From: Closterium sp. NIES-65
Lineage: Eukaryota > Streptophyta > Zygnematophyceae > Desmidiales > Closteriaceae
Assembly (NCBI GenBank): GCA_948144175.1
Contig: CANXME010002310.1
Location: 62,001 to 126,000, forward strand
Direction: 5' to 3'
DNA length: 64,000 nt
Shown: positions 1-61,962 of the stretch, piece after piece
Layout: every line of letters starts with the position of its first letter
How positions within the stretch are numbered: position 1 is the stretch's first letter
Made by a program: the position numbers and the translations under genes
Notes under the pieces: generated by a model
Databases searched by the model: none
The model's input: only the letters and a program-made list of their open reading frames with translations
What the model was told of the DNA's origin: nothing

Positions 1-1788
1 GCAACGATCCTCGTTGTTAGCTTCCCCGCAAAGAAACACAGGCTTTATAAATTCGTCGATCACAGGAAACGGGCTGCGGGGATTCGGTTCGTCTCCCGCC
101 TTTATCCAGAGCCGGAATCAAACCACGCAGGGACTTCATACGCGTTATCGACACGGCCCGGGTTTCCATACAAGAGCGTTTTTTTGGAAAGGAGAGTCGG
201 ACGGGGAGAAGGATAAAGTGGATGATGCGGAAAAGGCCGCGGAGGAAGCGGAGAAGGAGAGAGAGGCGAAGGCGAAAGAGGAGGAGGAGAAGAGGAATAA
301 GCTGGTCATCAGCATTTTCGTTGACCTGCTGGGGTGGGCCTGCTGCTCCTGTCCTCCTCTCCCCTCCCCTCATCTGCTCCTTTCCTCCTCTCTTCCTCTC
401 TACCTCTCCTCCGCTTCTTATGCACTCTTATTCTGAAAAGATTTTTGTCTTGCATACCCCCTCCCATTCGCTTCCCCTCCCCCTCTGTCCCTCTCTCTCC
501 CAACTTACAACTCATTAATCCCACACTCCCAGGTTGTTGGCCAGTCGGCGCATTGTCCCTTTAAAATTACATCTGACTCTCTCCCCCCCCCCCCCCGCAC
601 TCACGGCTCCCAGGTTGTTGGCCAGTCGCCACATTGTCCCTCTGGACTACATCTGGATTCCTACATCGGCCTTCATCATTCAGGTGCTTTCAACATACAC
701 ATCAGGTGCCTTCCACAGCCTTTCAGGTGCGTCATTCTTGTGCTTCCAACAGACGCCCAGGTGTCTGCAACAGTCATTCGGGTGCTTTCTGCTTTCAACA
801 GATGCTGAGATGTTCCAAGGGATTGCGTAAGGAGGTAAGTTGTTTGAGCTAATGCACCTGCACTCGTATCTTTAATCTCACCTGCCCCCTTTCCTCCTGT
901 CTCTCCTGCTCGCCTGTCTCTCTTGTCCCCACCCCGCCCCCCCACCAGAGAATGTACCGAGCACCACTGCTCTCCACTGACCCTTGAGTCGTCTCAAACT
1001 CACCCACTCTTTCGCTGCCCCCTGCTCTCCTGTCCCTCCTCCTACCCCCCCCCACGCCCCCCCTCCAGAGAATGTACCGAGCACCGCTGCTCTCCAGTGT
1101 GGGCTTCGTGGAGCAAGCCATACCGGGCATAGAGTTCATCCCCACGGCCACACTTGGTGAGTGTGAGGAGTGCTAGTAGGTAGCAGTGAGGAGCTCACGT
1201 GTGTGTGCGTGTGTGTGTCTGGTGGCTTGGTATGGGCGTGGGTATTCGCATGGTCATGGCGCACAGCTCTCACCTCTCCAGTGTGGGCTTCGTGGAGCAG
1301 GCCATAGCGGGCGTAGAATTCATTCCCACCACCACACTTGGTGAGTCCAAGGAGCATTAGTACGTACACGTGTGCTGGTTGTATGTGTGTATCACGTGGC
1401 ATGGGCAGTGGCATGGTCACGGCCATCGCCCACCAGTCTCCCGTGTTTGTCGTCGTGGAGCAAGCCATCCCGGGTATAGAGTTCCTTCCCACAACCACAC
1501 TCGGTGAGTCACGGCATGTCATGATGGTATAAACTACATCCTCACGTACACACTTGGTGAGTCACGGGCATGACATGCAGCACATGAATCACACTCGACG
1601 GATCACTCGAAAAGCCCGCCACCTCTGTGTCATGATGCCACCCTGTGTGATCTTATCCATCTCACTTCTTCCTCACCTTTCCCCTTGCCCTCCCAGGCTG
1701 GATGCTTGAGACGTACCCAGAGCTGCGGAAGCTCACTCGAGCCCTGCCACTTATGGGCAGACTCAGCAGCCGCTTCAAAAAAGGATAG
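1..1788 (+). CDS. small organelle-type membrane protein, 3' part (5' end off window)
   Basis: Spliced gene entering from the left edge; no ATG is in frame, so the start lies outside. Exons by frame and GT-AG sites: up to 333, 614-683, 1069-1156, 1697-1788 (TAG). The first exon encodes a basic, Ser-rich N-terminus followed by a Lys/Glu-rich charged stretch and the start of a hydrophobic segment (VISIFVDLLG). The next exons read IVPLDYIWIPTSAF, then RMYRAPLLSSVGFVEQAI and GIEFIPTATL, and the last encodes GWMLETYPELRKLTRALP and ends in a basic tail. The pattern of two hydrophobic stretches around PLDYIWIP and IPTATLGW resembles small uncharacterised membrane proteins of plants and cyanobacteria, as I recall that family; I know no function. 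The introns hold extra truncated copies of exons 2 and 3. Splice phases (2, 0, 1) agree across the chosen exons, which makes this reading firm. Confidence 0.6.
520..1508 (+). repeat. truncated duplicate exons inside the introns of the first gene
   Basis: An upstream partial copy of exon 2 lies at about 527-575 (acceptor plus first ~35 nt), just before the intact exon at 614. A partial copy of exon 3 lies at 946 to about 975 (acceptor plus start), before the intact exon at 1069. Two further exon-3 copies lie downstream at about 1279-1342 and 1443-1506. Each of these keeps the exon end and a GTGAGT donor but no complete start. The copies differ from the intact exon at several bases, so they are not assembly echoes of one read. 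Confidence 0.75.
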
Positions 1789-19559: not shown

Positions 19560-19564
19560 CAATG

Positions 19565-21606: not shown

Positions 21607-21609
21607 GGC

Positions 21610-22480: not shown

Positions 22481-22484
22481 TTGT

Positions 22485-23523: not shown

Positions 23524-23736
23524 CACCCCCATAAACAAAGTGGGGGAGAACAGGGGGTCACAAGACCAGTCAAGCAAAGCAAAACAAAGCAAAGCTCAGG
23601 GTGGATCACAAAGTCACCACACATTCCGAGCACAAGTACAAGGCCACAAGGCCAGTTCACATGCAGGAGTATATATATATATATAAGGCTAGACAAGCAA
23701 GAGCAGGTATATATATATGTAACAGTACAAGCAAGG

Positions 23737-25900: not shown

Positions 25901-25959
25901 GACGGGACAGGCTGTGGACACTCTAAGGGAGGAGGAGGACCAGTAGAAGGTGGAAGACC

Positions 25960-28448: not shown

Positions 28449-28449
28449 G

Positions 28450-29140
28450 CGGCAGGCAGCGCGCTAGTAAGGCAGGGGCTCACCAGTGGTGGGAAGAGCA
28501 GGCTCGACGACTCGGCGACTCGGGGGTGCGGGCGGCTCGGGTGACTCGGCGGCACGGCGGCACTACAGCAACTTCGGTTCGGCGGCTCGGGCGACTCGGG
28601 CGACTCAGCGGTACGGCGGCTCGGCAGCAACTACAGCGCGGCGGCTCGGCGACTCGGCGGCTCGGGTGGCTGAGGTGGCGCTGCGGCTCGGGCGGCTTGG
28701 GTGGATAGGGTGGCTCGGCACTAGCTCGGCGGCGCCGGCGGCTCGGTGGTGACGGCGGGGCCGCTGGGGGACGACGGCGGGGCCGGGTGGAGCGGCGATG
28801 GGGCCAGCAGAGGTGGCGCCGGGGCCGCAGGGTAGGCGTCCGGGCCAGCAGAGGCGGTGCCGGGGCCAGCAGAGGTGGCGCCGGGGCCGGGAAGGGCAGC
28901 GCCGGGGCCGCAGGGGTAGGCGACGTGGCCAGTAGAGGCGGGGCCAGGTCGAGAAGAGCGGCGTTGGGGTCACCGGGGTAGGCGACGGGGCCGGCCGAGG
29001 TGGCGCCGGGGCCTGGAAGGGCGGAGCCGGGGCCGGGAAGGGCGGCGCTGAGGCCGCAGAGGTAGGTGACGAGGCCACTAGGGCGGCAGATCGGGGCCGC
29101 GAGGGCGGCGCGACGCGGCCGTTGCTCTTGGCAGTGTCAT
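28450..29140 (-). repeat. GC-rich leader of Copia-2
   Basis: Short degenerate GC-rich units (GGCGGCTCGG and GGCGCCGGGGCC types) across 28490-29110. A similar but shorter stretch sits between the 5' LTR and the spacer in Copia-1 (19130-19370), supporting a shared leader. Confidence 0.6.
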
Positions 29141-38033: not shown

Positions 38034-41000
38034 ATGGTTGCCGTTTCACGAGTCATGAATTCGCGCGCGATTCAGGTCAGGGAATTCAGCCACGTTTCGC
38101 TTAGAACGCTTATCACCGCACCTCCCTCTCAGGCTCTTAGTCTACGCTGTAGACCGTGTTCGAGCGTTCTAATGACAGCACCTTTTGCTGAAGTCACCTC
38201 GGTCACAAGCACTCGGCTCAAAGTCAGCTCATTAGATGCCAACCGTCAGATATCCGTTTTGCATGCTGACGTGTACACCTCGCGCTTCATTGGCCCAGGA
38301 AAACCCCTGAGGTTCTCAACGAATCCGCGTTTAGGTCGATCTGATCCGTTGAGTCACCTCCGTTACACTCACGTTACTGATCCCAGGATGGATTCGGCGA
38401 AATCAGCTGCAGCGTCTCGATATCTAAACATCAGATGCTATTCCGGTCAAGCAGACAATGCCTCATCAGGCATTTTGTCATCAGGCACTGGCTCGGTAGC
38501 AGGCATTGGTTCGGCAGCACAAAATGGCTCGGCAGCAGGCAGTGGGTCGGCAGCAGGCGACGCAGCAGGCGATGGATCAGGCGACGGACTGAAGGGTTTG
38601 AACGAGGAGCAGCGAGCAGCGGTGGTGGCATCGCCACACGGCTGCGTGCGCGTGGTGGCTGGTCCTGGATCCGGCAAGACCCGCGTGCTCACACACAGGG
38701 TCGTGAATTTGATCAAGAACCTCGGAGTGCACCCCCGTAAGATACTGGTAAGCTGGCTGGTCGCATGAATTCTGAAATTGAAAGAACCTAAAAGACATTC
38801 TGAACTGTATACACTTATTAAAATGCTGCCGGGATGACCCTTAGTGGCAATTATGGGGGGTTGTTTTCGTTTTTGAAGTTTGCTGACGTTCCGTTTTGGC
38901 CTGTGCCTGTGCCTGTTCCTTTGCATGTGCCTGTGTCTGCAGTGTATCACCTTCACCAACAGAGCAGCCAATGAGCTTGTGACACGTCTCCAGGACCTCC
39001 TGTCTCCCGAGGCTGCTGCAGCTGTCCATGTGAGTCACGCTGGTTACCACATTCGTCACTATTACCACAGTTACCCCATTCGTCACAGTTACCACACTCA
39101 TCACAGCTACCACAGTTACCGCAATTTTTCTTATCTTATGTGCTACTGCCTGTCTCTTGAGGGACGTCATGCTCCACTTCTAATGACGTTCCCCCCTGCA
39201 CGCTTCAAATGCTCTCTGCTTGGCTCTATGTCTGGTTGGTTTGCTCTTTCTGGTTGGCCCCTCTCTTTGTGCTTGGGATGCATGCAGGTGGGGACCTTTC
39301 ACGGCATTGCAGCTCGCATTCTCAGGCACGAGATGCTTCCCTCTCTTCGCAACCGAAGGTGAGTAAGGGTGGCGAGGGTGTACACTGGTTTTTGTTTTCT
39401 TTTCTTTTGTTGCAATGCGTATGTGATTTTCTTTCCTTTTTACTATAGTTATATCACAAATTATCACCCTTTTTCCTCGAATGTCAATGTTTCGCCCTGG
39501 TGCTCTCAAGCGCCTCTCTTTGCCCATTCGCCTTTATCTGCCTGCCTGCAGATGCTACAGGGACTACACCATATATGACGAGGATGATTCACTGCGAGTG
39601 ATAAAGGAGATTGATAAGCAGGTGAGACCACATCTCGGGGTCCATCCATGCAATAAATACATGAACCCACGAACACATGGATCCATGAATTTATATTACC
39701 ATAAGCCTGTGAATCCAGAATCCCATGGACTTATAAACCCATGAACCCTGAACCCAAGACCCGTTCCCTCTATCCATCTCATCCTTTCAATCCCCTGTTC
39801 ACCCCAGGAGAAAGAAAGACTCGCTAAGATCAGCCCATATCAGCCAGGGAAATCCAATTCAGCAGCAGCACGAGGAGCAGCAGCAGGAGCCAATCCGGAC
39901 GGCCTATACGAGGCCATGTCACATCTCTCTCTCCAATCAGGCGACGCCACGTCAGCAGCACAGGCAGCAGTGGCAGAAGTGCTGGGGGATAGAGGGGGTG
40001 GGGGAGCGGGAGGAGATGGGGTAGACGGGGATAAGGAGGGAAACCGGTTGAAAAATATAAGGGATGCGGTGTTGAGGTATAAGGAGGGGGGGATGAAAGA
40101 GGACATGAGGGGGAGAGTGGGGGAGAGGAGGAGAGGGAGGTTCGAAGGGGAGTTGAGCATAGGAGGCTCCATTCCCAGATACGCGAAGCTGTACGAGGTG
40201 AGATTGGAGTATAATATCGCACACTGTTATAATGGTGTTGCGCATGACGAGGTGAGATGGGAATGATGTTTTGCACACTGTTACTAAGGTGTTGCGCATG
40301 ACGTGAGGTGGGATGCGTTTTGGGTCAACCTTGAAATCGTTTGGCTGCATTCCCAGATACGCCAAGGTGTATGAAGTGAGATTGTAAGAAATCGTTTGTA
40401 TGGGTATACACAGAGAGTTTAAGGTGAGGGATGGTGTATTAGTGAGCACGTATCTTTCATCCGTCTTCCCCCCCTCTGCACTTCTCGCCCTCCCTGTCCC
40501 TGTCAGGAAGAGCTGAGGTGCAGCAACGCGTTGGATTTTGACGACCTCACACACTTCCTCCTCGGCCGCTTCCACTCTCAACCTTTGAAGCGGCTCAAAA
40601 CCCCTCCTTTCCGTGCTTCCTGAGCTCCCTGGTTCACTTCCCGCCTTCCCTGTCCCTGTCAGGACGAGCTGAGGCGGAGCAACGCGTTGGACTTTGACGA
40701 CCTCACACACTTCCTCCTCGACCTCTTCCACACCCAGCCCCACGTGCTCAAGGTGAGCTCTCTATGATATGCTCTCTCACGGAGGCTTTCAATCAGTACA
40801 CCTGATTTTGACCACCTCACACATTTCCTCCTCGACCTCTTTCACTCTCAGCTGCACGTGCTCAAGGTGAGCCCGCGTGCAAGGTGCGGATTTGTGCATC
40901 TTTCTGTCGCCCATCCACGCATTTCCTCCTCGGCCTCTTTCACACGCAGCCCCATGTGCTTAAAGCTCAAGTATACATTTGTCAGTGGGGTTTCGGGTTT

Positions 41001-44000
41001 TACAGTGTGCCTCACGGTTTTGCCCCAACGTTCAAGTTCCTAAGGATTTTGAATCCCAAAAGCCCCCCTCTTCTTTTCAATGTTCAACTTTTTACATGTT
41101 CACAGAAGCCCCCCTCTTTACAATGCTATCAATGTATACAGAAGCCCCCCTCTTTACAATGCTATCAATGTATACAGAAGCTCCCCTCTTTACAATGCTA
41201 TCAATGTATACAGAAGCCCCCCTCTTTACAATGCTATCAATGTATACAGAAGCCCCCCTCTTTACAATGCTATCTTATGGGAGATGATGTGTTGGTGGCT
41301 ATTGAGTCGACTAAAATTCATGTGTTGGTGGTTGGTGCTCAGAATGAGGTTCCCCCTTTTCAGTGCAGTGCTTTCTTATGGAAATGCTTTCGTACAATGC
41401 TGCACGTTTGTGAGCCCCTCCGACATGCCCCTCCCTCCGACATGCCCCTCCCTCCGACATGCCCCTCCCTCCGACATGCCCCTCCCTCCGACATGCCCCT
41501 CCCTCCGACATGCCCCTCCCTCCGACATGCCCCTCCCTCCGACATGCCCCTCCCTCCTGCATGCCCCTCCCTCCCGCATGCCCTGCCCCTCCCTCTCACG
41601 TGCCCCTTCCACGTGCCCCTCTTGTTGCTACTGGCAGAAATACCAAGAGCGCTTTCAGCATGTGTTGGTGGACGAGTTTCAGGACACGGATTCGGTGAGT
41701 GGGATAATGAGACGTGTCGCAATATTGAAGCGAGGTAGGGAATAATGAGGCTACCAGTCTCTGGTATCACGGCAGGTTTCAGCATGTGTTGGTGGACGAG
41801 TTTCAGGACACGGATTCGGTGAGTGGGCAGCGTTGCAGCACCTCTCAACTCCCCTGCTTTCTCCCTGCTTCTCTGTCGTCTCCCTCTCCTCCAGTTCCAG
41901 TACGAGATAGTGCGGCTACTGACACTCAACTCCAAGCGCCTGTTCGTTGTGGGGGACATTGACCAGGTGCGACCAGGTGCGACCAGGTGCGACCAGGTGC
42001 GACCAGGTGCGACCAGGTGCGACCAGGTGCGACCAGATGCGATCAGGTGCGACCAGGTGCGACCATGTGCGGCCAGGTGCGACCAGGTGCGACCAGGTGC
42101 GACCATGTGCGACCAGGCGGGGCTTGTTGACTAAGTGTGACGTTTTGATTACATTTGATTGGATTCAAAGTTTCTGTTTGTTATGGGAGACTCCTAATCG
42201 AGTCCCCAACTGCATGCTTCGTCACTCTCGCCTCCGGCCTTTGCTTGCTCCTGTCTTATCCACACGTTTCGTTTTGTCATTTCTTACATGGGTCCACCCA
42301 TCATTCTTACATGGGTCCACCCATCATTTCTTACATGGGTCCACCCATCATTTCTTACATGGGTCCACCCATCATTTCTTACATGGGTCCACCCATCATT
42401 TCTTACATGGGTCCACCCATCATTTCTTACATGGGTCCACCCATCATTTCTTACATGGGTCCACCCATCATTTCTTACATGGGTCCACCCATCATTTCTT
42501 ACATGGGTCCACCCATCATTTCTTACATGGGTCCACCCATAATTTCTTACATGGGTCCACCCATCATTTCTTACATGGGTCCACCCATCATTTCTTACAT
42601 GGGTCCACCCATCATTTCTTACATGGGTCCACCCATCATTTCTTACATGGGTCCACCCATCATTTCTTACATGGGTCCACCCATCATTTCTTACATCACC
42701 CATCATTTCTTACATGGGTCCACCCATCATTTCTTACATGGGTCCACCCATCATTTCTTACATGGGTCCACCCATCATTTCTCTGTCGTTGCATGTGCGC
42801 ACAACATGGCATGGCAGTGCATCTATTCCTGAAGGGGGGCAGGGTACCACTACCTGCAGCGGCTTCCTGCCTGCCTGCCTGCCTGGTTGCTCACTTGTTA
42901 CCCTCCCTCCCTTCCTACCTTGTGTGCATGGCATGGCAGTGGATCTACTCCTGGAGGGGAGCAGAGTACCACTACCTGCAGCGGCCGCCTGCCTGCCTTA
43001 TTGGTTACTTGATACCCCCCCCCCCTCTCCCAATTGCGTGCGCACAACATGGCATGGCAGTGCATCTACTCCTGGCGCGGAGCAGAGTACCACTACCTGC
43101 AGCGGCTTTTAGACGAGGACTTTGATGACGTCACCACGCTGCAGGTGAGTGAGTGACTGAGTGAGTGCGGGAGTGTGAGTGAGGGTGTGCGATCGAGTGA
43201 GTGAGCGAGCGAGTGAGTGAGTAAGCAAGACCCACGTCCCCCACCTCACCACATCATGAGTAAGCGAGTGAGGCCACCCGTGCATGGTGGGTGGAATCAG
43301 CTTGCATTAATACTCCCATGCTGCCAATCTTGTTCTCACTTCTTTTGAGTCGACTCAAAAACACCACATCCTTTGAGGCCACCCGTGCACGGTGGGTGGA
43401 ATCAGCTTGCACTAATACTCCCATGCTGCCAATCTTGTTCTCACTTCCATCACTGAAAGTAGTAATCACTGTCTCTAATGTTTCTTGTATCCCCCCCGTC
43501 CCCTCCCCTCCACACCCCCCTCTGTCCACTTGTACCCTGCACTTCAGCTTCGCAGCAACTACCGGTCATCCCAGAGCATCCTGCAGGCAGCAAACCGCGT
43601 GATTCAAGGCTGCTCCTTTCCCCACGTGTCGGCCAAACTCCCCCACACTCCCACCCCCACTCCTCCACACCCGCCAGCTTCGCAGCAACTACCGGTCATC
43701 CCAGAGCATCCTGCAGGCAGCAAATCGAGTGATTCAGGGCGGACCCAGGGACAGGCGCGTTGGGGGAGGCACCCTGGAGCTCAAACCAACCAAGGTGTGG
43801 AGCGTGAGGGGACGAGGATAAGGGGGTTAGACGGAGAGAGGGTGCTCTGGGATTGAATGAGTGCGTGCGAGGGAGCAGGCAGCCAAGTGAGTGATTCAGT
43901 TCAGGGCGGGCCCAGGGATAGGCGTGTTGGGGGTGAGGCACTCTGGAGCTGAAACCAACGAAGGTGAGAGGTATGAGTGGTATGAGGGGGTAAGGGAGGG

Positions 44001-47000
44001 AGGAGGGCAGAGGCAGCATGATGGCTAAATGGATGGACGCTGCTATTCTCGACCATAGTGACCCTGCTGCCACTGCCAATGATCTCGATGCTGGTGCTGA
44101 TGCTGTAGGTGCTGCTGCTGCTGATGTTGCTGGTGCTGATGCTGTAGGTGCTGCTGCTGCTGATGTTGCTGGTGCTGATGCTGGTGGGAGCACTGACAGC
44201 GTCAGCACTTCCAGTGCAGATAGCACCTCTGGTAAATGCACAACCGGAGCAGAAGCAGTACTAGCTGATGTGAGTGCAGCGGATGTGAGTGCAGTGGATG
44301 TGACTACACGGATGGAGTGGCCCGCACCGGGGACTGCAGCTCCAGTCCCGCACCGGGGACTGCAGCTCCAGTCCCGCACCGGGGACTGCAGCTCCAGTCC
44401 CTCACCCGGGACTGCAGCTCCAGCCACGCACCCGGGACTGCAGCTCCAGTTCCCCACCCGGGACAGCAGCTCCAGTCCCGCACCGGGGACTGCAGCTCCA
44501 GTCCCTCAATGACTAAGGATTTTCATATCCCTCTCTCTCCCTCCTCATTACCCCTGTTTCCGTCCACCCACTTCCCCCCAGCCCCCAGGCCATCCGGTGT
44601 TCTTCTCCTTCTTCCCCTCGTGCGCCAGTGAAGCCGCAACAATTGCTGAGGAGATAGAGAGTCTGGTTGACCCCGCTGAGCTCTCCCCCTGGCGGGGGCA
44701 AGCAGGCGCGAGGGGGGGCGCGGGGGGATGGGCGAGGGGAGGGGCGGGGGCAGGGGGAAGGGCATGGGCGGGGGGAGGGGCGAGGGAGGGGGCAATGGGA
44801 CGGGCGAGGGCAGGGGAGGGCGGAGGGGCGAGGGGAGGGGGAATGGGAGGGGAGATGGAAGGGGAGGTGGGAGGGGAGGGAGCAGGGGCGAGTGGGGGCT
44901 ATGCATGGAGGGACTTTTGTGTGCTGTACCGCACACACGCTCAGGCCGTGCAGCTGCAACAGGGGCTGGCGGACCTCGCGATTCCATGCATTGTCGTGGG
45001 CGGGAGCACTCTGTTCCAGAGGAAGGTGGGTTGCTGCTTTGATGTGCCTCGTGTTGCCTGGGGGCCAAGGCATCTCAGCCAAACAACACTCCAGCAGGGG
45101 CTGGCGGACCTCGCCATCCCATGCATCGTTGTGGGAGGGAGCACGCTGTTTCAGAGGAAGGTGGGTGCTGCCCCCTCGTTTCCGAAGGAGTGAGCAGCTG
45201 TGGTGGTTAGGGACCTGATAGCGTACATGAGAGTGGTCGCCAAATCAGCAGACGGTGTTGTTGCTCATCCCACCCTCACTCCCCTGCCCTCTGCTCCCTC
45301 CACTCCCTCCACTCCTGTCCCTCCCCCTCGCAGGTGGTGAAGGATCTCATAGCATACATGAGATTGGTCGCCAATCCAGCAGACAGTGTTGCACTGGGTC
45401 GGATATACAACACGCCCTCCAGAGGTATTCCTGTGTTTACCCTCGGGGACTTACGGTGTTTACCGTGCAGGGGTATTATGTTTTTCTCCTCTATGGATAG
45501 TCTGGTCTTTACCTGAAAAAGTTGTCCTCCGTGTTTTTTATTTTTTTATCTGTTTTTTTCCACTTCACCTGCCTTCCCCCCACCTCCTTCTTCCTCTAGA
45601 ATCTTCCTCCCTCCCCTTCCTTCTCCAACTCCCCCCTTCCTTGCCCATGGGGGCCTGAGCGAAGTCATGGGCCATCGACAAGCCAAGTCACTGGTGCAGC
45701 AGTGGTTCGGACCATTGACACTCCCTTTCTCCCTCATTACTTGTCCTCCCCTCTGTACCTCTCTGCACCTCTCTTTCTTCCTCATCACTCCCGTCCTCTC
45801 TACCTTCACCTTGCCTCCCTTGCACCATGCAGGCCTGGGGGCGAAGTCATGGGCGACAGTGCAGCAGTGGGCTCAGGGCCTCGACTCCCCCACGGGCACT
45901 GCAATCCTGGTACTCGTGCATCTGCACGGCCTGTCTTTCATCCATTCGTCCATCTTCCATGCATCCTCTTGCCATCGTCCATGCATCCTCTTGCCATCCT
46001 TCTTATGTTGAAAATTCCCTTCTTTTCTCCCTCCTATCTTGCAAACCCCATTCTCCACTCTCCCATCCTCCATCCTCCCCTCCTCCACCCTCCCACTTCA
46101 CTTCAGATCCATGCATTGTCCAGGAACTAGCAGCATGCCAATTGCTTTCCTCCCATTGCTTTCCCATCATCCACACTCCCATACTCCACACTCTCCCATC
46201 CTCCACATTCTCCATCCTCCACTCTCCCATCCCCTACTCTCCCATCCTCCACACTCTCCCATCCTCCACACTCTCCCATCCTCCACTCTCCCATCCTCCA
46301 CTCTCCCATCCTCCACTCTCCTATCCTCCACTCTCCCATCCCCTACTCTCCCATCCCCCACTCTCCCATCCTCCACTCTCCTATCCTCCACTCTCCCATC
46401 CCCTACTCTCCCATCCTCCACTCTCCCATCCTCCACTCTCCCATCCTCCACTCTCCCATCCTCCACTCTCCCATCCTCCACTCTCCTATCCTCCACTCTC
46501 CCATCCCCTACTCTCCCATCCCCCACTCTCCCATCCTCCACTCTCCTATCCTCCACTCTCCCATCCCCTACTCTCCCATCCTCCACTCTCCCATCCTCCA
46601 CTCTCCCATCCTCCACTCTCCCATCCTCCACTCTCCCATCCTACACTTTCCCATCCTCCACTCTTCCATCCCCCACTCTCCCCATCTTCCACTCTCCCAT
46701 CCTCCACTCCTATCCTCCACTCTCGCATCCTCCACACTCTCCCATCCTCCGCTGTCCAATTCTCTACTCTCCTCCACTTCCCATCACATTAATTTGACTA
46801 GGAACTAGCACTGGGCAAGCATGCAGACAACCCTCCTTCCATCTCCAAAAAGGCCAGGTCAGAAAACAGCCTTTCTCTTTTATCCGGTGCAATTGTTCGT
46901 TCTTATTGGTCTGATTCACGTACAAAGCTTCACATTTCTAGTCTCTGTTGTTTCCTAGTTCACATCAGTTGATCTGTAACAAGCGCTTTGATCAAGGAAC

Positions 47001-50000
47001 TTTTATATCCACCCACATCCCCTCCCTCTGTCTCTCCTCGTGTCTCAGGGAGAACCCTCTCAGCTTCGCACACCTCATCCTCTCCTTCCGTACTGCTGTA
47101 GGCACAGTGGATGGCGACAACTCAACTCTGAGTGCTTCGAGTCTTGATGGGAACAAAAAAAAGGGAGGGAAGGGGCCGAACCTGAACCTGTGTGTTCCAC
47201 CACCTACATCCCCTCCCTCCCTCTGTGTCCCGTCCTGTATTATGTCTCAGGGAAAATCTCCTCAGCTTCGCACACCTCATTCTCTCCTTCCGTACTGCTG
47301 TAGGCACAGTTGATGGCGACAACTCAAGTCTGAGTGCTTCGAGTCTCAGTGATTCGAGTCTTGATAAATCAAGTCCCGGTGATTCGAGTCTTGATAAATC
47401 AAGTCCCGGTGATTCGAGTCTTGGTGATTCGGGGCTAAGTGGGAGCAGTGGTGTGACCGAAGGGCTGCCTCATGCGGGAGGGCTGCTGAGGACTATAGTG
47501 GATGTGTGAGTACAGGGAGAGGGTTGCATGCTTGTTAATTGAGGCACAGAGCAACAGCAGCAGCACAAAAAGTAGCAGCAGCACCGGTGTTCTTGAAGAA
47601 GCAATCATCAGCACATTTTTCACTCATCCTTTCCAATCTCTCTTTCAATACCTCTCGTCCAAACTTATTATAGTTCCTCTTCCCCATCCCTTTTCTCCAC
47701 CCCTCTTCCCCACACCTCTTTTCCATACCTCTTTCCCATACCTCTTTCCCGTACCTCCTGTCGAGGCTCGAGTTGAAGCAGGAGTACAGCCCGGCAGCAG
47801 CAGCAAAGAGCCGGTTCCTGCTTGTTTATTCCTCTTCCCCATACCTCTTCCCCATACCTCCTGTTCAGGCTCGGGTTGAAGCAGGAATACAGCCCGGCAG
47901 CAGCAGCGGCAGCAGCAGCAAAGAGCCGGTCCCCCAACCCTGCTGCGTTGAGGCAGCGGCATGAGGAGGAGGGGAAGCGAGCTCTTGACCAAATGGAACG
48001 ATTGCAGGTGGGTGTGATGGGAGGGTGGGTGGGGATTGATTGGTTTTTCTTGGTGGTGGGTGTGGTGGTGGGGGGGTTGTGGTGGGGGGGGGTGGGGGGC
48101 TGTATGGCGTAGTAACAGCACGGTTGAGAGGAGCTGAGAGGATTTATGGCAGTAATGGAAGGAAAATCCTGCCCGACCCTGCTCCCCGAGGAGATGTAAG
48201 GAGGATGAGAGAGGAGGAGGACGAGCTTATTTGAAGAAAACAGCCATAAGTGTAAGTAGAATGCTGCTTATAAATCGTGTTCTAATCCACTTCTGTAACT
48301 CGTTCCTTTGACCTTCCCGAACCGATTGCTGATACTGCAGGACTTGGCGAACAGGTTCGGCCCAACCTGTGGGGTTGGTATGGAGGGAGTGCGGAACTTT
48401 CTGGAGCAGATTGCACTACTTTCAGGGGAGATGCACGAGTCTGGGGTGAGTCAATAACGAGTCTGGGGTGAGTCAATAACGAGTATGGGGTGAGTCAATT
48501 ACGAGTATGGGGTGAGCTAATAACGAGTATGGGGTGAGTCAATAACGAGTCTGGGGTAAGTCAATAACGAGCCTCGGGTGAGTCAATAACGAGTCTGGGT
48601 GAGTCAATAACGAGTATGGGGTGAGTCAATATCGAGTCTGGGGTGAGTCAATAACGAGTCTCGGGTGAGTCAATAACGAGTCTGGGGTGAGTCAATAACG
48701 AGTATGGGGTGAGCCAATAACGAGTATGGGGTGAGCCAATAACCTGTCCGGGCTCAGTCAATAGCGAGTATGGGGTGAGTGTGCAAATAGCAGTCAAGGG
48801 GTTCCACGCTGTTATATGATTCCTATAATTGTTTGTTTTCCTCTCTTCTTTCTTTCCGGTTGCAGCGAGGAATGCTGCAGCATTCCTAACCTATCCTCCT
48901 TCCTCCCTTCTTCTCCCTCCCGCCTCCTCGCTACAGGGAAAGGAAGCACTGCTGTCAGCCAATGCGGTGCGGCTGATGACCATCCACAAGGCCAGGGTTC
49001 TGGAGTTCCCGGTGGTGTTCCTGACAGGCATCTATCTCAATGCACCCTCACACACCCTCACACACCTACACATTGTTACTACCTGTGCTGCTTGTTCCCC
49101 TTGGCAGGGCAAGGAGGGACAGCTGTCAGCCAACGCTGTGCGGCTGATGACCATCCACAAGGCCAAGGGGCTGGAGTTCCCTGTGGTGTTTCTGAGTGCT
49201 AGCTGCCACAACCCTACCCTATCCTCCTTTCGCTCCGCCTTCCTCTCTTTAGCATTCCCCCTCTTCATTGCAGGGCAAGGAGGCACAGCTATCAGCCAAT
49301 GCTGTGCGGCGGATGACCATCCACTAGGCCAAGGGGCTGGAGTTCCCTGTGGTGTTCCTGACAGGCTTATTCCTCAACACACCCTCACACTGTGATACCT
49401 ACTTCCCTTCCTCTGTCCTCCCTCCTCATTACAGGGCAAGGAGGGACAGCTGTCAGCCAATGCAGTGCGATTAATGACCATCCACAAGGCCAAGGGGCTG
49501 GAGTTCCCTGTGGTGTTTCTGACAGGCCTGTTTCTTTACACACTCTTCTGTCAATCCTCTCTCCATGACAGGAGCAAGGAGGGACAGCTGTCAGCCAATG
49601 CGGTAAGGCTGATGACCATCCACAAGGCCAAGGAGCTGGAGTTCCCTGTGGTGTTCCTCACAGGCATCTCTATCAACACACCTTCACACACCTTCACACT
49701 GTTATATCCTTGCACTGCTCTCTCCCTTTCCAGGGCAAGGAGGGACAGCTGTCAGCCAACGCAGTGCGGCTGATGACCATCCACAAGGCCAAGGGGCTGG
49801 AGTTCCCTGTGGTGTTCCTGACAGGCCTGGAGAATCGAATCTTGCCGCTGATTCAGTATAGGAGGCGTGAGGAGGAGAGGCCTGGGTGGGAGAGGGTTAC
49901 TATAGGGACGGGGGGTAAGCATTCCCACCATCATCAGCAACAGCATAATCATCATCATTCTCATCAAAAGCAGCAGGTTGCGAGGAGAGGAGACTCTAGG

Positions 50001-50320
50001 GTACAAGGCGGGGGGGCGGAAAAGGAGGTTATGTTTGATGAAGAGGAGAGGAGACTTTGTTACGTGGCAATGACTCGCGCTCAAGATCGACTGTAAGTGG
50101 CTACCTGTATTGTCGTCAATCCGAAATCCCATTCTTGTGGTCCCCTGTTTGTCTATGTTTGTATTTTTTTGAAGTATTTTTACTCGTTTACTCATTGCGC
50201 CACAGGTACTTGAGTGGTGCACAACAGCGCAGAGTTTATAGAGAAACCTTGCAATCATTGGAGCCGTCAGTCTTCCTTAACGGTCTACAGGATCTTGCAC
50301 CGTTTCCAGGGAATATATAG
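38034..50320 (+). CDS. SRS2: SRS2-like UvrD-family 3'-5' DNA helicase, 19 exons
   Basis: Exons: 38034-38747, 38943-39029, 39288-39358, 39552-39621, 39808-40197, 40663-40752, 41638-41694, 41895-41966, 43061-43144, 43678-43794, 44582-45025, 45334-45424, 45833-45909, 46802-46857, 47251-47505, 47869-48007, 48341-48445, 49734-50092, 50206-50320. They sum to 3393 nt with matching phases: 1130 residues. All superfamily-1 motifs are present in order: GPGSGKT (Walker A), [28 protein letters not shown] (Walker B), VGDIDQ with [47 protein letters not shown], and [11 protein letters not shown]. The protein should unwind DNA and disrupt recombination intermediates, as SRS2/UvrD enzymes do. The N-terminus before the helicase core is long and Ser/Arg-rich, which could be an organelle-targeting sequence. 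The second ATG (MNSRAIQ) is an alternative start. Introns are crowded with truncated exon copies and minisatellites. Confidence 0.88.
40330..40966 (+). repeat. truncated copies of helicase exons 5 and 6
   Basis: A 3'-end copy of exon 5 with its donor lies at about 40330-40377. Exon 6 (intact 40663-40752, [19 protein letters not shown]) has an upstream copy at 40508-40592 (acceptor plus start, then divergent). Two downstream copies lie at about 40804-40866 (exon end plus GTGAGC donor) and 40918-40966 (middle part). Confidence 0.8.
41100..41580. repeat. 36-bp and 17-bp minisatellites in a helicase intron
   Basis: 41100-41275: about five copies of a 36-bp unit containing CTATCAATGTATACAGAAGC. 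41413-41580: about nine copies of CCTCCCTCCGACATGCC (17 bp) with decay at the right end. Both lie in the intron before exon 7. Confidence 0.85.
41777..41820 (+). repeat. downstream partial copy of the Walker B exon
   Basis: Repeats the last 43 nt of exon 7 ([15 protein letters not shown]) and its GTGAGT donor, 80 bp after the intact exon. Confidence 0.85.
41967..42115. repeat. 10-bp minisatellite starting at a splice donor
   Basis: Exon 8 ends GACCAG at 41966 and is followed by about 15 copies of GTGCGACCAG. Each unit repeats the exon end and donor-like GTGCG, so the array offers many equivalent GT sites. Minor variants occur (GATGCGATCAG, CATGTGCGGC). Confidence 0.9.
42284..42785. repeat. 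24-bp minisatellite with an internal inverted repeat
   Basis: About 20 near-perfect copies of a 24-bp unit containing ATGGGTCCACCCAT, in which ATGGGT and ACCCAT are reverse complements. One copy near 42695 is shortened. Confidence 0.9.
42799..42987 (+). repeat. two upstream partial copies of helicase exon 9
   Basis: Copies at about 42799-42866 (with a TGA after CIYS) and 42925-42987, each with the GGCATGGCAG acceptor context and the start of the exon ([14 protein letters not shown]), before the intact exon at 43061-43144. Confidence 0.8.
43262..43962 (+). repeat. intronic duplication and copies of helicase exon 10
   Basis: 43262-43450 holds two copies of a ~110-bp intronic segment (GAGGCCACCCGTGCA...). 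An upstream copy of exon 10 (acceptor plus [18 protein letters not shown]) lies at 43541-43613. A downstream copy (exon end plus GTGAGAG donor) lies at 43887-43962. The intact exon is 43678-43794. Confidence 0.8.
44085..44510. repeat. CTG-rich and 26-bp minisatellites in a helicase intron
   Basis: 44085-44185: a duplicated unit of CTG/GTT-rich sequence. 44330-44510: about seven copies of a unit like CCGGGGACTGCAGCTCCAGT. Confidence 0.8.
45091..45705 (+). repeat. partial copies of helicase exons 11, 12 and 13
   Basis: 45091-45154 repeats the end of exon 11 ([19 protein letters not shown]) with its donor, downstream of the intact exon. 45207-45262 is an upstream partial copy of exon 12 ([10 protein letters not shown]). 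45652-45705 is an upstream partial copy of exon 13. Confidence 0.75.
46170..46760. repeat. 15-bp polypyrimidine minisatellite, about 37 copies
   Basis: Unit CTCTCCCATCCTCCA with variants (CCCTA, CTATCC) arranged in a higher-order pattern. It fills most of intron 13; the plus strand is almost purine-free except for A in CCAT and TCCA. Confidence 0.9.
47050..47815 (+). repeat. upstream copies of helicase exons 15 and 16
   Basis: 47050 to about 47145 copies the start of exon 15 ([20 protein letters not shown]) with acceptor, before the intact exon at 47251-47505. 47764-47815 copies the start of exon 16 before the intact exon at 47869. Exon 15 itself contains a 30-bp coding repeat ([10 protein letters not shown], 47350-47425). 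Confidence 0.75.
48446..48780. repeat. 22-bp minisatellite starting at a splice donor
   Basis: Exon 17 ends CACGAGTCTGGG|GTGAGTCAAT at 48445. The array repeats GTGAGTCAATAACGAGTCTG about 15 times, so each unit carries a strong GTGAGT donor next to the exon-end sequence. Confidence 0.9.
48938..49660 (+). repeat. five upstream copies of the helicase motif V exon start
   Basis: Copies at about 48938-49030, 49109-49195, 49273-49371, 49435-49525 and 49573-49660, each with a pyrimidine tract, a CAG or AG acceptor and the sequence for [14 protein letters not shown]. The third has a TAG in place of the Lys codon after TIH. All end near FLTG, where the intact exon (49734-50092) continues. Confidence 0.9.
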
Positions 50321-51123
50321 GCCAAGGCGTCTTCGGTAACATAACGACTAGCAAATCACATTTCTTTATGTGGAAACATGTATTAAGATATACGCTCAGT
50401 CTAATTTTTCCCTTACCTTTATTTCGAAGCGTCCTCTGGTGCAACATATGTCAACCATTGGCAGTGAGTTCCCAAGGGCCCACCCATCACATCGCGCACA
50501 TCAATCCATTCCCCCCTTCCTGACTTCGAAGTGACTACCTCAGTTGTCACAAGGCTTCATTACTTCCCGAGAATCGCGAACCACCTAATTTGCGTGAATT
50601 CGTAGCCTCCTATTGTCTTGCACATCTGTCAATTTCGCAAGCTCGAGCCGTCTCAAAACCCTGTTTGCATATTTTTACTCATGTGTAAGGAATTTACACC
50701 GAGAATCTCGTGACATCGAGGTTCTCGAAATGTTCGCCCTACGCGATTCTTTTTAGTTCCATTATTCATCTATCCGTCGCCATCGCTGATACCGCGCTGT
50801 CATTCTAATACGAGATTTTTGTAATTTCCGCAAATCGTTTTGCGGGTAACACGGTGTCCCGATTGTACCAAGCAGCAGCATAAGGTGACTATTGAGTCGC
50901 GCGAAGGCCTGCTGATTAGATTCAAGGTCAAGGTTAAGAAGCTGGTTAGCTTCTAAGCAGCATAAGCGTCGGGATACTGACGTGTCAGGAGCAACGGCAG
51001 CGGGAACTGACGGCTCGTTTCCGCAGGAGGGTTTAACGAAGAAGACGGCTTCAAAGCGGGAGAAAGAGTAAACGAAGAAGAAGGGTGAGAGAAGCGGTGC
51101 TGGACCAGAGAGAGACTCAGCGA
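50321..51123. other. intergenic spacer upstream of the mTERF gene
   Basis: No gene supported. The last 120 bp before the ATG already contain AAGAAG-rich sequence like the coding region that follows. Confidence 0.4.
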
Positions 51124-54100
51124 ATGGCGGGCGTTACCGATGCAGACACAATGAATCAGTCGCGAGATGCTGGGGAGATGGAGTCAAAGCGGGAGAAAGG
51201 GTCAAAGGTGAAGAAGAAGGAGAAGAAGGAGAAGAAAGAGAAGAAAGAGAAGAAGCTGAAGAGCGGTGCGCTGAATGGTGGATCAGACGAAGCAGTGGAG
51301 AGCGTCGCGGCTGCAGAAGCGGGGAGACAGTCGCAGCCACCAGAGGAGAAGGGGAATAAGGGAGAGATGGAGGAGGGTATTCGAGAGAAGGGTGATCGGA
51401 AGAAAGGGTCAAAGCGGGTGAAGGGAGCGAAGCTTGAGAAGGAGTCAAATCGCAAGGGATGCGCTGAGGCTGCTGCCGCAGAGGAGCAGTCAAAGCAGAA
51501 AAAGGTGTCAAAGCGGGAGAGGGAGTCAAATCGGGGAAAGGAATCGGAACGGAAGAAGGCATTGAGTAGCGGCGGTAATGCAGATGAGTCAGCGACAGAT
51601 GGTCAGGATACAGCAGCAGGTGCCAAGGAGGCAGCAGCGGAGGCAGAGTGTCGAGCTGAAGGGTCTAAGCGGGCGAAGAAGGGGTCAAAGCGGAAGAGAT
51701 CTGCGAGTGGCGACGTGGACGCTAGCAGCGGCGGAGATGAGGCTGTGGCAGGGATGGAGGCTGCAGCAGAGGTGGAGCAGTCAATCGGAAAGGAGAAAAG
51801 GAAGAAGGCGAAGCGGGAAGGAGCCGTGCGTGATGGGTCTGCCAATGAGGCAGCTGATGGTGTTACGGTTGCAGCAGAAGCGGAGCAATCACCTGAGAAA
51901 AAGAAAAAGAAGAAGAAGCAGAAACTGGCTGTGCGTGAGGGGGCGAATGAGGCAGCTAATGAGGCAGCTGCAGGTGATAATACTGGAACAGAAGCGGAGG
52001 AATCACGTGTGAAGAGGAAGAAAAAGAAGTCGAAGCTGAAAGGAGCTGTGGATAACGGGGTTGTTAGTGAGGCAGTGACAGGTGCTGGTGTTTCAGCAGA
52101 GGAGTTGCAAGCACATGGGACGAAGGAAGAGACGAAGGAAACGAAGACGAAAGAAAAGAAAAAGTCAAAACGGAAACGGACTGATGAGGGTGTTGCCAGT
52201 GAGGCTGCTGCAGGTGATGATGCAGCAGCAGAAGCAGAGCAATCACGTGTGGGGAAGAAGAAGAAAAAGAAGAAGTCGAAGCGGGAACGAGCTGCTAGAG
52301 ATGGGGTGAAGGAGGAAGAGAGAGGTGCTGAGTTTGCAGAGGAACTTCTTCAGGAGCATGATGCATCGTTACCAGGTGGTTCAGAGGTGGCAGCAGCAGA
52401 GGAAGGGTCTCAGGTGAAGGGGAGGAAAAGGGAATCAAAGCAAGAAAAGGGGTCAAAGCGGGAGAAGGCGAAACAGAAGAGAGGGGATAACGGTATCGAG
52501 GAAACCAGCAGCATCGGGAATGGTGCAGCGGCAACAGAAGGGGTTGGGGTTGCAGCAGCAGGGGAGCAGCCGAGAGCGAGCGGGTCAAAGCGGGAGAAGA
52601 AGGCAAAACGGAAGAGAGCTTTGGGTAGTGGCAGCAAGGAGAACGGTAGCAGGACTGATGGAGTGGCAGCGGTAGGGGTGGGGGTTGCTGTAGCAGAGGA
52701 AGAGCAACCGCGGGTGAAGGGATTGAAACGTAGACGGGTTTCAGTCCCTAGCGGTGAGGGTGAAGCAGCAAGGGTTGAATCAGCAGCAGGAGCTGAAGCA
52801 GCAGCAGCAGCAGCAGCAGGAGCAGCAGTAGGAGCAGCATCAACAGGAGCAGCAGCATTAGCAGCACCAGCTGCAGCACCAGCACCAGCAACAGCAGCTG
52901 CTGCTGCTGCTGCTGCTGCAGTTGAAGCAGAATCTGAAGTACTACAGATGCAGGTACCAGAAGCAACGCCGGGACAACCAGCAGCGGTGAAAGTAGAAGA
53001 GGTAGATGCAGCAGGGGCAGAAGGAGCAGCGGCACAACCAGTAGCACTAGGAACAGAACCAACAGCAGCTGGGGTAGAAGTAGCAGGGGCGGAACCAGCA
53101 AAGAAAAGTCAGGCACCCAAATCAAGGCCGAAGAAAAGAAGCGAAAAAACAAGTGGCGTTTCTGCAATCCCGGCTGATTTGCGCTCGCTCTTGGAGTCAT
53201 GGGGCATGGACGAGCAGCAGATGTTTCGGGTACTCGTGCTGCGTCCCGGACTCGCGAAAGTAAGCGTAAAGGAACGAATCCTGCCGGGCAGCGCAGTGTT
53301 ACGCGGTTACGGAGTCGAGACCTGCGATCTCGCCCACGCGACCCTCATTTATCCGTGGTGGCTCGGCGCCTTGTCTGCAGAGGGCATAGAAGAGGTTGTG
53401 CAATTTCTGCGGGATTTGGGGGTCACGGATGGGGAGCTCTTGGGGAAGCTGCTGCGGCGAAATCCCGCGATGTTTGCGACTGACTCGGAGAAATTTCAGG
53501 AAAGGAAGATTGGGATGCTCAAGGAGCTTGGCATCACGGACTTCGTCCGAACCATGAGAAGGGATTCGCGAGTGATGACTGCTCGTCCGGCAACTCTCAC
53601 TGGGAAAGCGGATTATTTGAAGGAGTTGGTGGGAAATCATCATGCTCATAACATCGTAACGCGTAACACCACCCTCCTGGCAATCTCGAAGCAAGAGCTT
53701 ACGTCCAGGGAAGGGCTGTTTGAGGAACTTTTTGGACGTGAGCTACCCCGGATGGTTATAGCCAAGTTACTCCGGAAAGTGGATAACTCTTCTGGCGAAA
53801 CTCTGCGAGGGAAGTTTAAAGCCCTGTTCGACCTTCTCGGGGTAGAGCCAGCCCGAAAAGTTGTTTTGAAATATCCCAAGGTGTTGCATGCTTCGGAGGA
53901 GTCAATACGTGAGAATTTCCGTCGGTGGGGTTCTTTTTTAGCGGGCGAATATGATGCAGCGGATATGGTTCAGCGGTATCCGCTGCTGCTGTGTTCTAAC
54001 TGGGAGAGCGGAATACAGCCTAAGCTGGACTTCCTGCAGAAAAATCTTGGTCTGTCTGCCGGAGCTATAGGTTCGGTGCCGTACCTGGTGACTCTCAGCC

Positions 54101-59415: not shown

Positions 59416-61962
59416 TCATCTCTCCTCCTCCTTGGGTTGAGCCATTTCATACTTCAGAAGCAACTCATCAATCTCCTTTGCCCCAAACACACGGTACCTG
59501 CACACACTCACATTCAACTCAGACAAGGCACCGTCAGGACAATTACGAGAAGATAGAAAACCATACCCCCTCCCCCTCATGGTTCAGCCCTCCTCTCCAC
59601 ATCTAATAAACCTGTAGCCCCACTCATCCCCCCACACCTCAGGCAAACTCACCTGACTTGTCCATCCTCGAGGCACACTTCAGCCAGCTCAATCTTCTCC
59701 TGATGCCCCTCCCACCTGACCACCCTCAATTCCCCCTCATCCACATTCATCAGGCCATCTCACCTGACTTGGCCATCCTCGAGGCACACTTTAGCCAGTT
59801 CAATCTTCTCTGCACTCAGGCTCGTGCTGTCCATGGTCTTACTCAGCACCTTCAGCGCCAGCTGCACTGCTCCTTCCAGGTCCATCCCTGGAATCGCCTC
59901 CCCTCCCGGCCCCTTCTCCTCCTTGTACTCTTGCTTCAGCAGCGACTGTGCTGCACCGTGATTGGCTCCTATGGCACACGCCCGCCACCCGCCATAGTTC
60001 CCTGAGGGATCTGAGTGGTACAGCTGGAACTGATGATGCTTGTCCCACCCTGGAAGAAGGAAAGTTTTGAAAGGGAATATAACAAAGTCAGGGAGAATAA
60101 TTCTTACAGCAAAGATGCACGAGAAGGCCACCTTCCAGACAAAGATGCACTCGGACCTTATTATTAAGCAGTTGAGCTGCACCTCGACTTAACAACTGCA
60201 GTGCAACTTATAACGAACCAATCAAACCCCACCTCACAGAAAGAGACACCGAGGAGGAGGCGCACCTGCAAAGAGGAAGGAGACGCCAAACGGACGCAGA
60301 CCACCAAACTGCGTGTAGCCCTGCTTGGTGTCGCACAGGGACTGCACCAGCTGCTCCATGGGAATAGGCTCCTGCTCGCAGGAGGAGGAGGGGAGCCAAA
60401 GAGGAAGCAGAGGGGAATGGAACAAAAGAGAAACGTAGCCATGCTTGGTGTCGCAGAGAGACTGTACCAGCTGCTCCATGGGAATAGGCTCCTGCACGCG
60501 GGAGGAGGAGAGCCGAAAGGGGGCAGACGAGGAAGCAGAGGGAAGAACACAAGGGAATGAGAACTCAGAAGTAGCCCTGCTTGGTGTCGCACAGGGACTG
60601 CACCAGCTGCTCCATGGGAACAGGCTCCTGCATAAGCCAGGCGGAGGGCAGAAGGGTGGTGAAAGAGGATGGTTCAGATGTAGAAGTGCTGAATGTCGCA
60701 CAGGAGTTGCAACAGCCGCTTTACCTGAATGGGCTTCTGCAGGAACCGGGAAGGGCGAATAGTAGGGAAGCGGTGGAGAGAGAACGAAAGAAAATGAGAG
60801 CTCGGTTGTTTGTGGGCCTACATGGTAATCTCTCCACTCATACGCGCGACAAACGCACCTGATAGGCGTATGTGTAGCGCTGGGCGGCCAGCCGAGCGGA
60901 ATTGACGAGGATATTGGCGTCGGCGGTGATCCCAGCAACAGCAGCAGCGACGTGGTCATCAATTCGATACATCTTCTCGTTCGTCTTGCTGCTCTCCAGC
61001 AGCTTCGACGTGATGCGCTTCTCCGCTGCCAGCACCACGCCGTCCGTCGCCAGAATGCCTATGGCCGACCCCGCATGGCTGATGGCCTCCATTGCATACT
61101 CCACCTGGTGGGTGGGAAGCGGCGGGAAGGGGTGGGAAGGGGTGTGGAGCAGCTTCGACGTGATGCGCTTCTCCGCTGCCAGCACCACGCCGTCCGTCGC
61201 CAGAATGCCTATGGCGGACCCTGCGTGGCTGATGGCCTCCATCGCGTACTCCACCTGGTGGGAAGCGGTGGGAAGCGGTGGCAAGGGGTGGGAAGGGGTG
61301 GAAAGGGGTGGCAAGGGGTGGGAAGGGGTTGGGGGAGCGGGGGGGGGGGGGGGGGGGGGGGGGGGGGAAGAACCATGAGAATGCGTGAGAGAAGCGGAGT
61401 GAGGAAGAGAAGGTGGATAGAGGCGGGGAGGTACGGAGTGGGAAAGGAAAAGAGGGAGAGGAAACGCGAGAAGGAGGAGGGGGATCAGTGTTGCTGCCCT
61501 TGAGCAGCTTCGGCGTGATGCGCTTCTCCGCCGCCAGCACTACTCCGTCTGTTGCGGAAGAAATTCGACTCAAGTTGACTCAACCGCCGACTGAAACTAG
61601 TCTAAAAAGAACCACTTAGACTCACGGACATCGCACCAGGAACAATCTATGAGTTGGCTTAGGTAACTGAACCTGCTTTTTGAGAATTCTAAAAAAACAG
61701 AGTCGCACCAAGAACAACCTCTGGGTCGGCCCAGCAATCGCACACCCTGATCGCACTCAAACTCAAACTCGACTGACGGAGACCAATTACTAGGTGACTT
61801 TTGAGTCGACTCAAAAGTCACCTCGGAGACCACTTACTCTCACTATCATCGCACCAGGAACAACCTCTGGGTCGGCCTAGCAATCGCACACCCTGATCGC
61901 ACCTGGAACAGCCGGCCTTCCGGCGAAAACGTCGTCGTGCGACTGTCATAGCGTCTCGACAT
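59416..61962 (-). CDS. PAC1: 20S proteasome subunit alpha type-4
   Basis: Five exons on the minus strand: 61962-61903, 61104-60859, 60371-60266, 60049-59764, 59497-59416. They sum to 780 nt, 259 residues, as expected for this subunit. Exon 1 encodes [20 protein letters not shown]. Exon 2 continues [39 protein letters not shown]. Exon 3 gives [36 protein letters not shown]. Exon 4 gives [20 protein letters not shown] and [15 protein letters not shown]. The last exon ends [19 protein letters not shown]. This is the conserved alpha-4 (PSMA4) pattern, a non-catalytic ring subunit that gates the 20S core. Introns contain extra truncated copies of exons 2, 3 and 4. A 29-base G run lies in intron 1. 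Confidence 0.93.
59653..59701 (-). repeat. downstream partial copy of proteasome exon 4
   Basis: Repeats the end of exon 4 ([14 protein letters not shown]) and a GTGAGT donor on the minus strand, 60 bp after the intact exon end. Confidence 0.8.
60436..60745 (-). repeat. three upstream partial copies of proteasome exon 3
   Basis: At about 60436-60497, 60570-60635 and 60683-60745. Each begins with an AG acceptor context and the start of the exon ([16 protein letters not shown] or decayed versions) and breaks off before QFGGLRPFG. Confidence 0.8.
61148..61556 (-). repeat. two upstream partial copies of proteasome exon 2
   Basis: 61254-61148 copies the acceptor and first ~107 nt of exon 2 almost exactly ([19 protein letters not shown] to ITSKLL). 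About 61556-61500 is a shorter, more diverged copy ([18 protein letters not shown]). Confidence 0.85.
61339..61367. repeat. 29-base G homopolymer
   Basis: Continuous G run in proteasome intron 1. True length is uncertain because sequencing often misreads such runs. Confidence 0.7.
61690..61903. repeat. duplicated segments flanking a 32-bp perfect palindrome
   Basis: The sequence around CCTCTGGGTCGGCC, GCAATCGCACACCCTGATC occurs at 61715-61760 and again at 61863-61900, the second copy running into the donor of exon 1. Between them, 61792-61823 is a perfect palindrome centred on GTCGAC. GGAGACCA-TTACT lies on both sides of it as a direct repeat. Confidence 0.8.

Follow-up and report, generated by a model that had tools for sequence, protein, structure and literature searches.

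We analysed a window of 64,000 nucleotides (nt) from the freshwater alga Closterium sp. NIES-65 (contig CANXME010002310.1, positions 62,001 to 126,000) in which a complete gene for a UvrD-type helicase, at 38034..50320 of the forward strand, carries truncated copies of its own exons in its introns. The gene has 19 exons, all of its introns are bounded by GT and AG, and its frame of 1130 amino acids is intact. Matches to the Pfam families UvrD-helicase (E value 6.1e-71) and UvrD_C (7.2e-52) revealed that both the N- and the C-terminal UvrD helicase domains are present, in keeping with membership of the UvrD/PcrA-like group. The seven best matches of the protein were to the Closterium strains NIES-65, NIES-64, Yama58-4 and Naga37s-1.

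Each exon with 40 nt of flank was compared with the whole window by blastn, accepting E values up to 0.01. The comparison yielded 19 partial copies in unique sequence, derived from 11 exons (5, 6, 7, 9, 10, 11, 12, 13, 15, 16 and 18). A preliminary description of this DNA had reported partial duplicates in adjacent introns for at least ten of the 19 exons, and these counts bear it out; exons 12 and 13 were absent from its list. All 19 copies lie on the strand of the parent exon and within an intron adjacent to it (Table 1). The 13 upstream copies (E6, E9 twice, E10, E12, E13, E15, E16 and E18 five times) all hold the exon-start side, while the six downstream copies (E5, E6 twice, E7, E10 and E11) all hold the exon-end side. 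The directional rule of the preliminary description, by which upstream copies keep the exon start and downstream copies the exon end, was therefore found without exception among the 19; E13u is ambiguous, being a weak match that may represent a decayed near-full copy. Random orientation, which that description had named as grounds against its view, was not seen either in these copies or in a self-comparison of the window, where none of 74 repeat pairs was inverted. The tandem geometry is well supported. E values ranged from 5e-5 (E13u) to 5e-42 (E18u2) and, together with inspection of the matches, ruled out chance similarity and simple sequence as the source of the copies. The remaining blastn matches were two donor minisatellites, internal repeats of exons 11 and 15, flank-only matches and weak matches, mostly to simple sequence, on either strand.

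Table 1. Truncated exon copies and associated features in the window (u, upstream; d, downstream; numbers in brackets are exon positions).
Feature	Position	Strand	Remarks
E5d1, downstream copy of exon 5 end	40343..40375	+	donor kept
E6u, upstream copy of exon 6 start (1-77 of 90)	40507..40583	+	acceptor kept
E6d1, downstream copy of exon 6 (28-90)	40804..40866	+	donor kept
E6d2, downstream copy of exon 6 (42-89)	40916..40963	+	no GT at aligned donor
E7d, downstream copy of exon 7 (16-57)	41777..41818	+	donor kept, identical
10-bp minisatellite seeded at exon 8 donor (CAG|GTGC)	41961..42117	+	11 motif matches 3' of exon
E9u2, upstream copy of exon 9 (1-48)	42818..42865	+	in-frame stop
E9u1, upstream copy of exon 9 (1-46)	42940..42985	+	
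E10u, upstream copy of exon 10 (1-63)	43548..43610	+	3 synonymous, 0 nonsynonymous
E10d, downstream copy of exon 10 (36-117)	43875..43963	+	frameshifted
E11d, downstream copy of exon 11 (373-444)	45089..45160	+	9 synonymous, 0 nonsynonymous
E12u, upstream copy of exon 12 (1-58)	45203..45260	+	no AG at aligned acceptor
E13u, upstream copy of exon 13 (1-22; possibly decayed near-full)	45653..45672	+	no AG at aligned acceptor
E15u, upstream copy of exon 15 (1-96)	47049..47144	+	acceptor kept
E16u, upstream copy of exon 16 (1-39)	47766..47804	+	acceptor AG kept
22-bp minisatellite seeded at exon 17 donor	48435..48780	+	13 GGGTGAG motif matches 3' of exon
E18u5 to E18u1, array of five exon 18 start copies	48937..49665	+	starts 48937, 49108, 49274, 49435, 49573
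Proteasome alpha-subunit gene, 5 exons, 259 amino acids	59416..61962	-	Pfam match; same kind of copies
Upstream copy of proteasome exon 2 start	61147..61254	-	
Three upstream copies of proteasome exon 3 start	60491-60435, 60627-60571, 60736-60680	-	same codon cut in all
Downstream copy of proteasome exon 4 end	59653..59699	-	donor kept
Unnamed gene, intact exon 1069-1156 (region 949..1503)	upstream copy 949-978; downstream copies 1283-1340, 1454-1503	+	
Probably same unnamed gene, truncated upstream copy of exon start 607-655	526-575	+	exon inferred from splice-like edges only

In tandem exon duplication, including that of mutually exclusive exons, extra exon copies lie whole in the neighbouring intron with both splice sites. 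The helicase gene differs in that none of its 19 copies is clearly a full-length exon with both splice sites, E13u again being ambiguous. Duplication of whole exons followed by loss was rejected as well, as tests for an exon remainder beyond the truncation were unconvincing except for E13u (p 0.03). E18u4 also gave a p of 0.035, the p of 0 obtained for E7d and E9u1 probably reflects the presence of the intact exon in the flank under test, and four copies for which the exon aligned to itself (E6d1, E10u, E12u and E16u) were left out. The five copies of exon 18 share one breakpoint, all ending near exon position 88-96, and the two copies of exon 9 likewise share one; both sets look like array expansion. 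Because of these shared breakpoints, the number of duplication events is smaller than the number of copies: about 14, or 13 if both downstream copies of exon 6 arose in one event, with the minisatellites counted separately.

Since the introns are repeat-rich and of a kind able to confuse assemblers, we considered an assembly artefact or collapsed haplotypes as the source of the copies. The assembly comprises 874 Mb in 2400 contigs, and a second copy of the helicase gene lies on another contig (C1817), 99.6% identical over the gene and with all 19 partial exon copies. As these are common to both NIES-65 gene copies, misassembly is unlikely. The identity of the copies to their exons (84-100%) is also unlike sequencing error, and in other strains annotated proteins extend into similar copies, so that we regard the chances of an artefact as close to negligible.

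Truncated exon copies are not special to the helicase gene. Two further genes of the window, one for a proteasome alpha-subunit and one unnamed, have them too: in the proteasome gene the upstream copies derive from exon 2 (one) and exon 3 (three), with a single downstream copy from exon 4, while four copies, two upstream and two downstream of their exons, were assigned to the unnamed gene at the start of the window, one upstream assignment depending solely on splice-like edges. Judged by eye, nine of the ten copies in these two genes fit the directional rule; the tenth (61488-61555) comes from the middle of a proteasome exon and includes neither of its edges. No local repeat was seen in the self-comparison of the window for a transporter-like gene at 57.3-59.0 kb.

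We then sampled the genome in 20 stretches of 10 kb from six contigs, at positions chosen by us. Of 174 local repeat pairs in these samples, 173 were direct and one was inverted, and separated direct pairs (115 in 200 kb) occurred in 15 of the 20 stretches, some of them 98-100% identical. The preliminary description had called the number of events in one gene remarkable. The helicase gene is indeed about three times denser than the sample average, with 23 separated direct pairs in 13 kb; however, two of the 20 samples are denser still (22 and 28 such pairs in 10 kb), the phenomenon recurs elsewhere, and the events are fewer than the copies. Removal of overlaps left 62 non-redundant separated local direct duplications in the samples, 50 of them with at least five differences. 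These differences are periodic by three: the largest phases summed to 432, against a mean of 363 and a maximum of 394 in 2000 shuffles. When 16 pairs picked from the most periodic were inspected, 12 were classed by eye as a truncated copy with an intact exon, and 12 of these 12 fit the rule; those at L028 (1272 and 9401), L022 (3358) and L012 (802) were left unclassed.

Decay is evident in the copies themselves. A GT or AG stands at the aligned position in 15 of the 19 helicase copies and is missing there in four, one of which (E18u1) has an AG one base away. In-frame stops interrupt E9u2 and E18u3, and E10d and E13u are frameshifted. The distance from the copy's splice site to the true site is divisible by three in only five of the 19, and functional alternative splicing was rejected as a general cause on this ground. 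The copies thus look non-functional, given their stops, their frameshifts and their mostly out-of-frame sites, and splicing presumably ignores these half-exons. E11d is a possible exception. It matches exon 11 at 24 of 24 residues despite nine synonymous changes, its donor is located in frame, 135 nt past the true donor of exon 11, and the exon can be read in frame through the 135 nt of intron at 45026-45160 to the donor of E11d. Deposited proteins from NIES-64, NIES-65 (two) and Yama58-4 (one) include this stretch or a similar one, which adds a repeated block of 27 residues.

The differences between the copies and their intact exons are strongly biased towards silent sites. Across the 19 copies we counted 108 differences, distributed as 15, 17 and 76 over codon positions 1, 2 and 3. 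Of these, 73 are synonymous and 35 nonsynonymous, a ratio of about 0.16-0.20, whereas a copy decaying neutrally after duplication of the same exon is expected, by our estimate, to show a ratio of at least about 0.5. With 76 of 108 differences at position 3, too many for neutral decay after self-duplication, the sequences argue against a plain duplication of the adjacent exon. Non-independence of the copies was rejected as the cause of the excess, which remained when each exon column was counted once (62 of 89) and when one copy per exon was used (45 of 62). Base composition was also rejected, as the excess is clear for A, C and T, and for G clearly so only in comparison with position 1. Extending the counts to 26 copies from three genes brought the totals to 94 synonymous and 46 nonsynonymous, so that nonsynonymous differences make up a share of 0.33 where 0.55-0.62 is expected (p 1e-7 to 4e-12, with remaining relatedness ignored). 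These totals leave out P_E3u3, a degraded copy with 4 synonymous and 14 nonsynonymous differences, while the counts for P_E2u take in three mismatched edge bases; the mid-exon proteasome copy and the copy at 526-575 are absent from all codon counts. Synonymous counts were homogeneous among the 26 copies (dispersion p 0.45), as for a single template depth, in a test that is weak owing to the small counts per copy. For 31 nonsynonymous codon differences a comparison with sister strains was possible, E10d and E13u being omitted. Six of these, at four sites, equal the residue of a sister-strain exon, against an expected 1%, and of the other 25, 24 fall at residues invariant among the compared sister strains and two are stops. 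The divergence therefore looks partly like that of functional alleles and partly like later decay.

One explanation of a low nonsynonymous to synonymous ratio is that the copies are functional and under selection at the protein level, for example as alternative splice sites or exon ends. E11d would fit such a role, and the gene prediction behind the deposited models that run into it or a similar copy in NIES-64, NIES-65 and Yama58-4 used RNA-seq evidence (PMC10407611). However, the stops, the frameshifts, the lost or out-of-frame splice sites and the lack of a partner splice site in truncated copies all speak against this explanation, as do the 24 unshared differences at invariant residues, and we consider it improbable.

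A second explanation, and the one favoured by the preliminary description, is ordinary local tandem duplication from the same molecule or the sister chromatid, by slippage or fill-in of staggered breaks, followed by neutral decay and by selection against duplications that disturb the mRNA. This would yield the directional rule and the single orientation at no extra cost, it would account for the identity of E7d over 51 nt and for the nearly identical sample pairs, and duplications that are short and local have been described in other genomes (PMC2671141). Independent tandem duplications with one breakpoint inside the exon do match the geometry that we observed. Self-duplication with neutral decay fails, however, on the synonymous bias, on the six differences that equal sister-strain residues, and on the flanks of the E18 array, which are more diverged than its exon parts. 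Moreover, the nearest copies in the helicase gene and the other window pairs lie 24 to about 165 nt from their exon, several near 50, and for many copies this intervening sequence is weakly alike or not alike. We regard ordinary duplication as unlikely on balance, though still worth serious consideration.

In the E18 array, the exon parts match the intact exon at 88-98% identity, whereas the intron flanks, aligned with many gaps, match its flank at 70-89% of aligned columns. By our estimate, the nonsynonymous rate of 0.038 per site predicts a flank identity near 92%. For most copies, ungapped flank identity was lost, by eye, within 10-30 nt of the splice site. Gene conversion among the exon, its copies and gene copies elsewhere could keep exon parts alike while flanks drift. 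At columns 27 and 84 of the E18 array all four combinations occur, as judged by eye, and the E18 copies have therefore exchanged sequence or mutated recurrently, which conversion would accommodate along with the greater likeness of exon parts. If conversion ran between a copy and the adjacent exon only, however, the ratio should stay at or above about 0.5, the branch of the copy being neutral, so a diverged functional donor would probably be needed anyway. We consider conversion improbable.

The bias towards silent sites suggests that the DNA copied during repair came from a distantly related form of the gene concerned. We propose, with moderate confidence, that the copies are tandem-duplication scars of abortive homology-directed repair from a diverged homologue. 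A double-strand break would arise inside an exon, and one broken end would invade the matching exon of a diverged gene copy, on another haplotype or a homoeologue, the exon possibly being the sole stretch similar enough for invasion. Copying would proceed outward, past the edge of the exon and into the template's intron for a few tens of bases, after which the extended end would be joined to the other broken end. Extension of the right-hand end would leave a truncated upstream copy with the exon start and 3' splice site, then a spacer and the intact exon; extension of the left-hand end would leave the intact exon, a spacer and a truncated downstream copy with the exon end and 5' splice site. 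The leftover half-exons would be non-functional and decay, and the arrays (E18, E9 and proteasome exon 3) would expand later. An exon break, outward copying from a diverged exon and end joining would together account for the directional rule and the uniform orientation, for the single breakpoint within the exon, the diverged flanks and spacers, the synonymous type of the differences and the lack of clear whole-exon copies. Selection that keeps exactly one intact exon, which the preliminary description had invoked, may then be unnecessary, as a mechanism that needs a break inside the exon yields the same pattern. Richardson and Jasin reportedly described, in 2000, a coupled homologous and nonhomologous repair in which one end is extended by homologous copying and then end-joined; that work is said to concern experimental repair of an induced break and to make no claim on exons or diverged templates.

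Several observations weigh against repair from a diverged template. The diverged donor haplotype was not found: the sole other gene copy in a family search that scored only the best candidates is the one that is 99.6% identical. Nonsynonymous counts are likewise homogeneous among the 26 copies (p 0.23), and their rank correlation with synonymous counts is 0.31 (p 0.12). In six copies (E6u, E9u1, E9u2, E12u, E16u and E18u3) nonsynonymous differences equal or outnumber synonymous ones, an outcome that ordinary decay could produce, and E7d, with 0 differences in 42 nt, needs no diverged template. The downstream copies offer little flank support, their flank match extending over about 10 nt at most. 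Between the two NIES-65 gene copies, the truncated exon copies differ by 2 changes over 1257 nt, the introns by 38 over 7645 nt and the exons by 12 over 3393 nt; the first value is below the neutral expectation, with counts too few for a conclusion. The periodicity in the sample pairs could stem partly from repeats inside true coding exons, as looks to be the case for L028 at 9401. Finally, the report of a hybrid genome and of recombination between sequences that differ in origin, which supports such a template in this species complex, concerns NIES-4550 and not NIES-65, whereas the group of NIES-64 and NIES-65 points to recent duplication within the group (PMC10407611).

Comparable duplications have been described elsewhere. 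In helq-1 mutant Caenorhabditis elegans, theta-mediated end joining of abrogated recombination intermediates leads to tandem duplications (PMC8654963), as in the mechanism proposed here. Unlike the Closterium copies, those duplications arise in a mutant, range from about 100 bp to 10 kb with a median of about 1 kb, and are not known to be exon-anchored. Vertebrate repair-mediated duplications (RDs) are closely linked, reach 619 bp and are ascribed to synthesis-dependent strand annealing; their authors raise the homologous chromosome as a template (PMC2671141), which resembles our proposal of a diverged template. RDs are defined there (Pace et al. 2009) as not tandem, with duplicons more than 50 bp apart, and as having donor and acceptor within 5 kb; the helicase copies all lie within 0.8 kb of the parent exon. 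Only four of 824 RD donors were partial exon/intron sequences, one duplicated exon was inverted, and for two whole-exon copies that were tested the ratio of nonsynonymous to synonymous substitution rates (Ka/Ks) did not differ from 1 (PMC2671141). The Closterium copies, in contrast, are nearly all direct, lie beside the parent exon, have one edge within the exon and show a low ratio. Among the matches listed in the open-access literature, no title or opening abstract described truncated exon copies in Closterium introns.

If repair from a diverged homologue is the correct explanation, the divergence of parental genomes would be tied to a specific kind of intron growth, the genome would hold a record of lost alleles, and the many genes that have real-looking acceptors or donors without a partner would offer a natural test of splice-site choice. 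More tentatively, and with rather less confidence than we place in the repair mechanism itself, we suggest that in hybridising Closterium lineages introns are so diverged that exons are the only homology for repair between haplotypes, and that abandoned exon-anchored repair seeds half-exons genome-wide, leaving within introns a dated record of past haplotypes and introgression.

Closterium gene models may be wrong where a copy has been read as an exon, as with E11d. Directly 3' of the helicase gene lies a single-frame gene with an mTERF domain (51037-54288), the start of which is joined to the helicase in one deposited model each from Yama58-4 and Naga37s-1. Intron 1 of the proteasome gene contains repeats at 61703-61902, and the one with its end at 61902 starts right at the donor of exon 1; these repeats therefore hold intron sequence only. 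The truncated copy of proteasome exon 4 encodes 11 residues that differ from the 11 of the intact exon, and, judging by plant homologues, the copy may hold the older residue. Elsewhere in the window, a 68-bp tandem repeat at 7164-7977 comprises twelve copies with 91% matches, a Plavaka transposase domain lies on the reverse strand at 9340-10614, and frames with Copia-type reverse transcriptase and integrase domains occupy 15792-28463, also on the reverse strand, in a region that contains a 3-kb repeat with about 89% identity between its copies.

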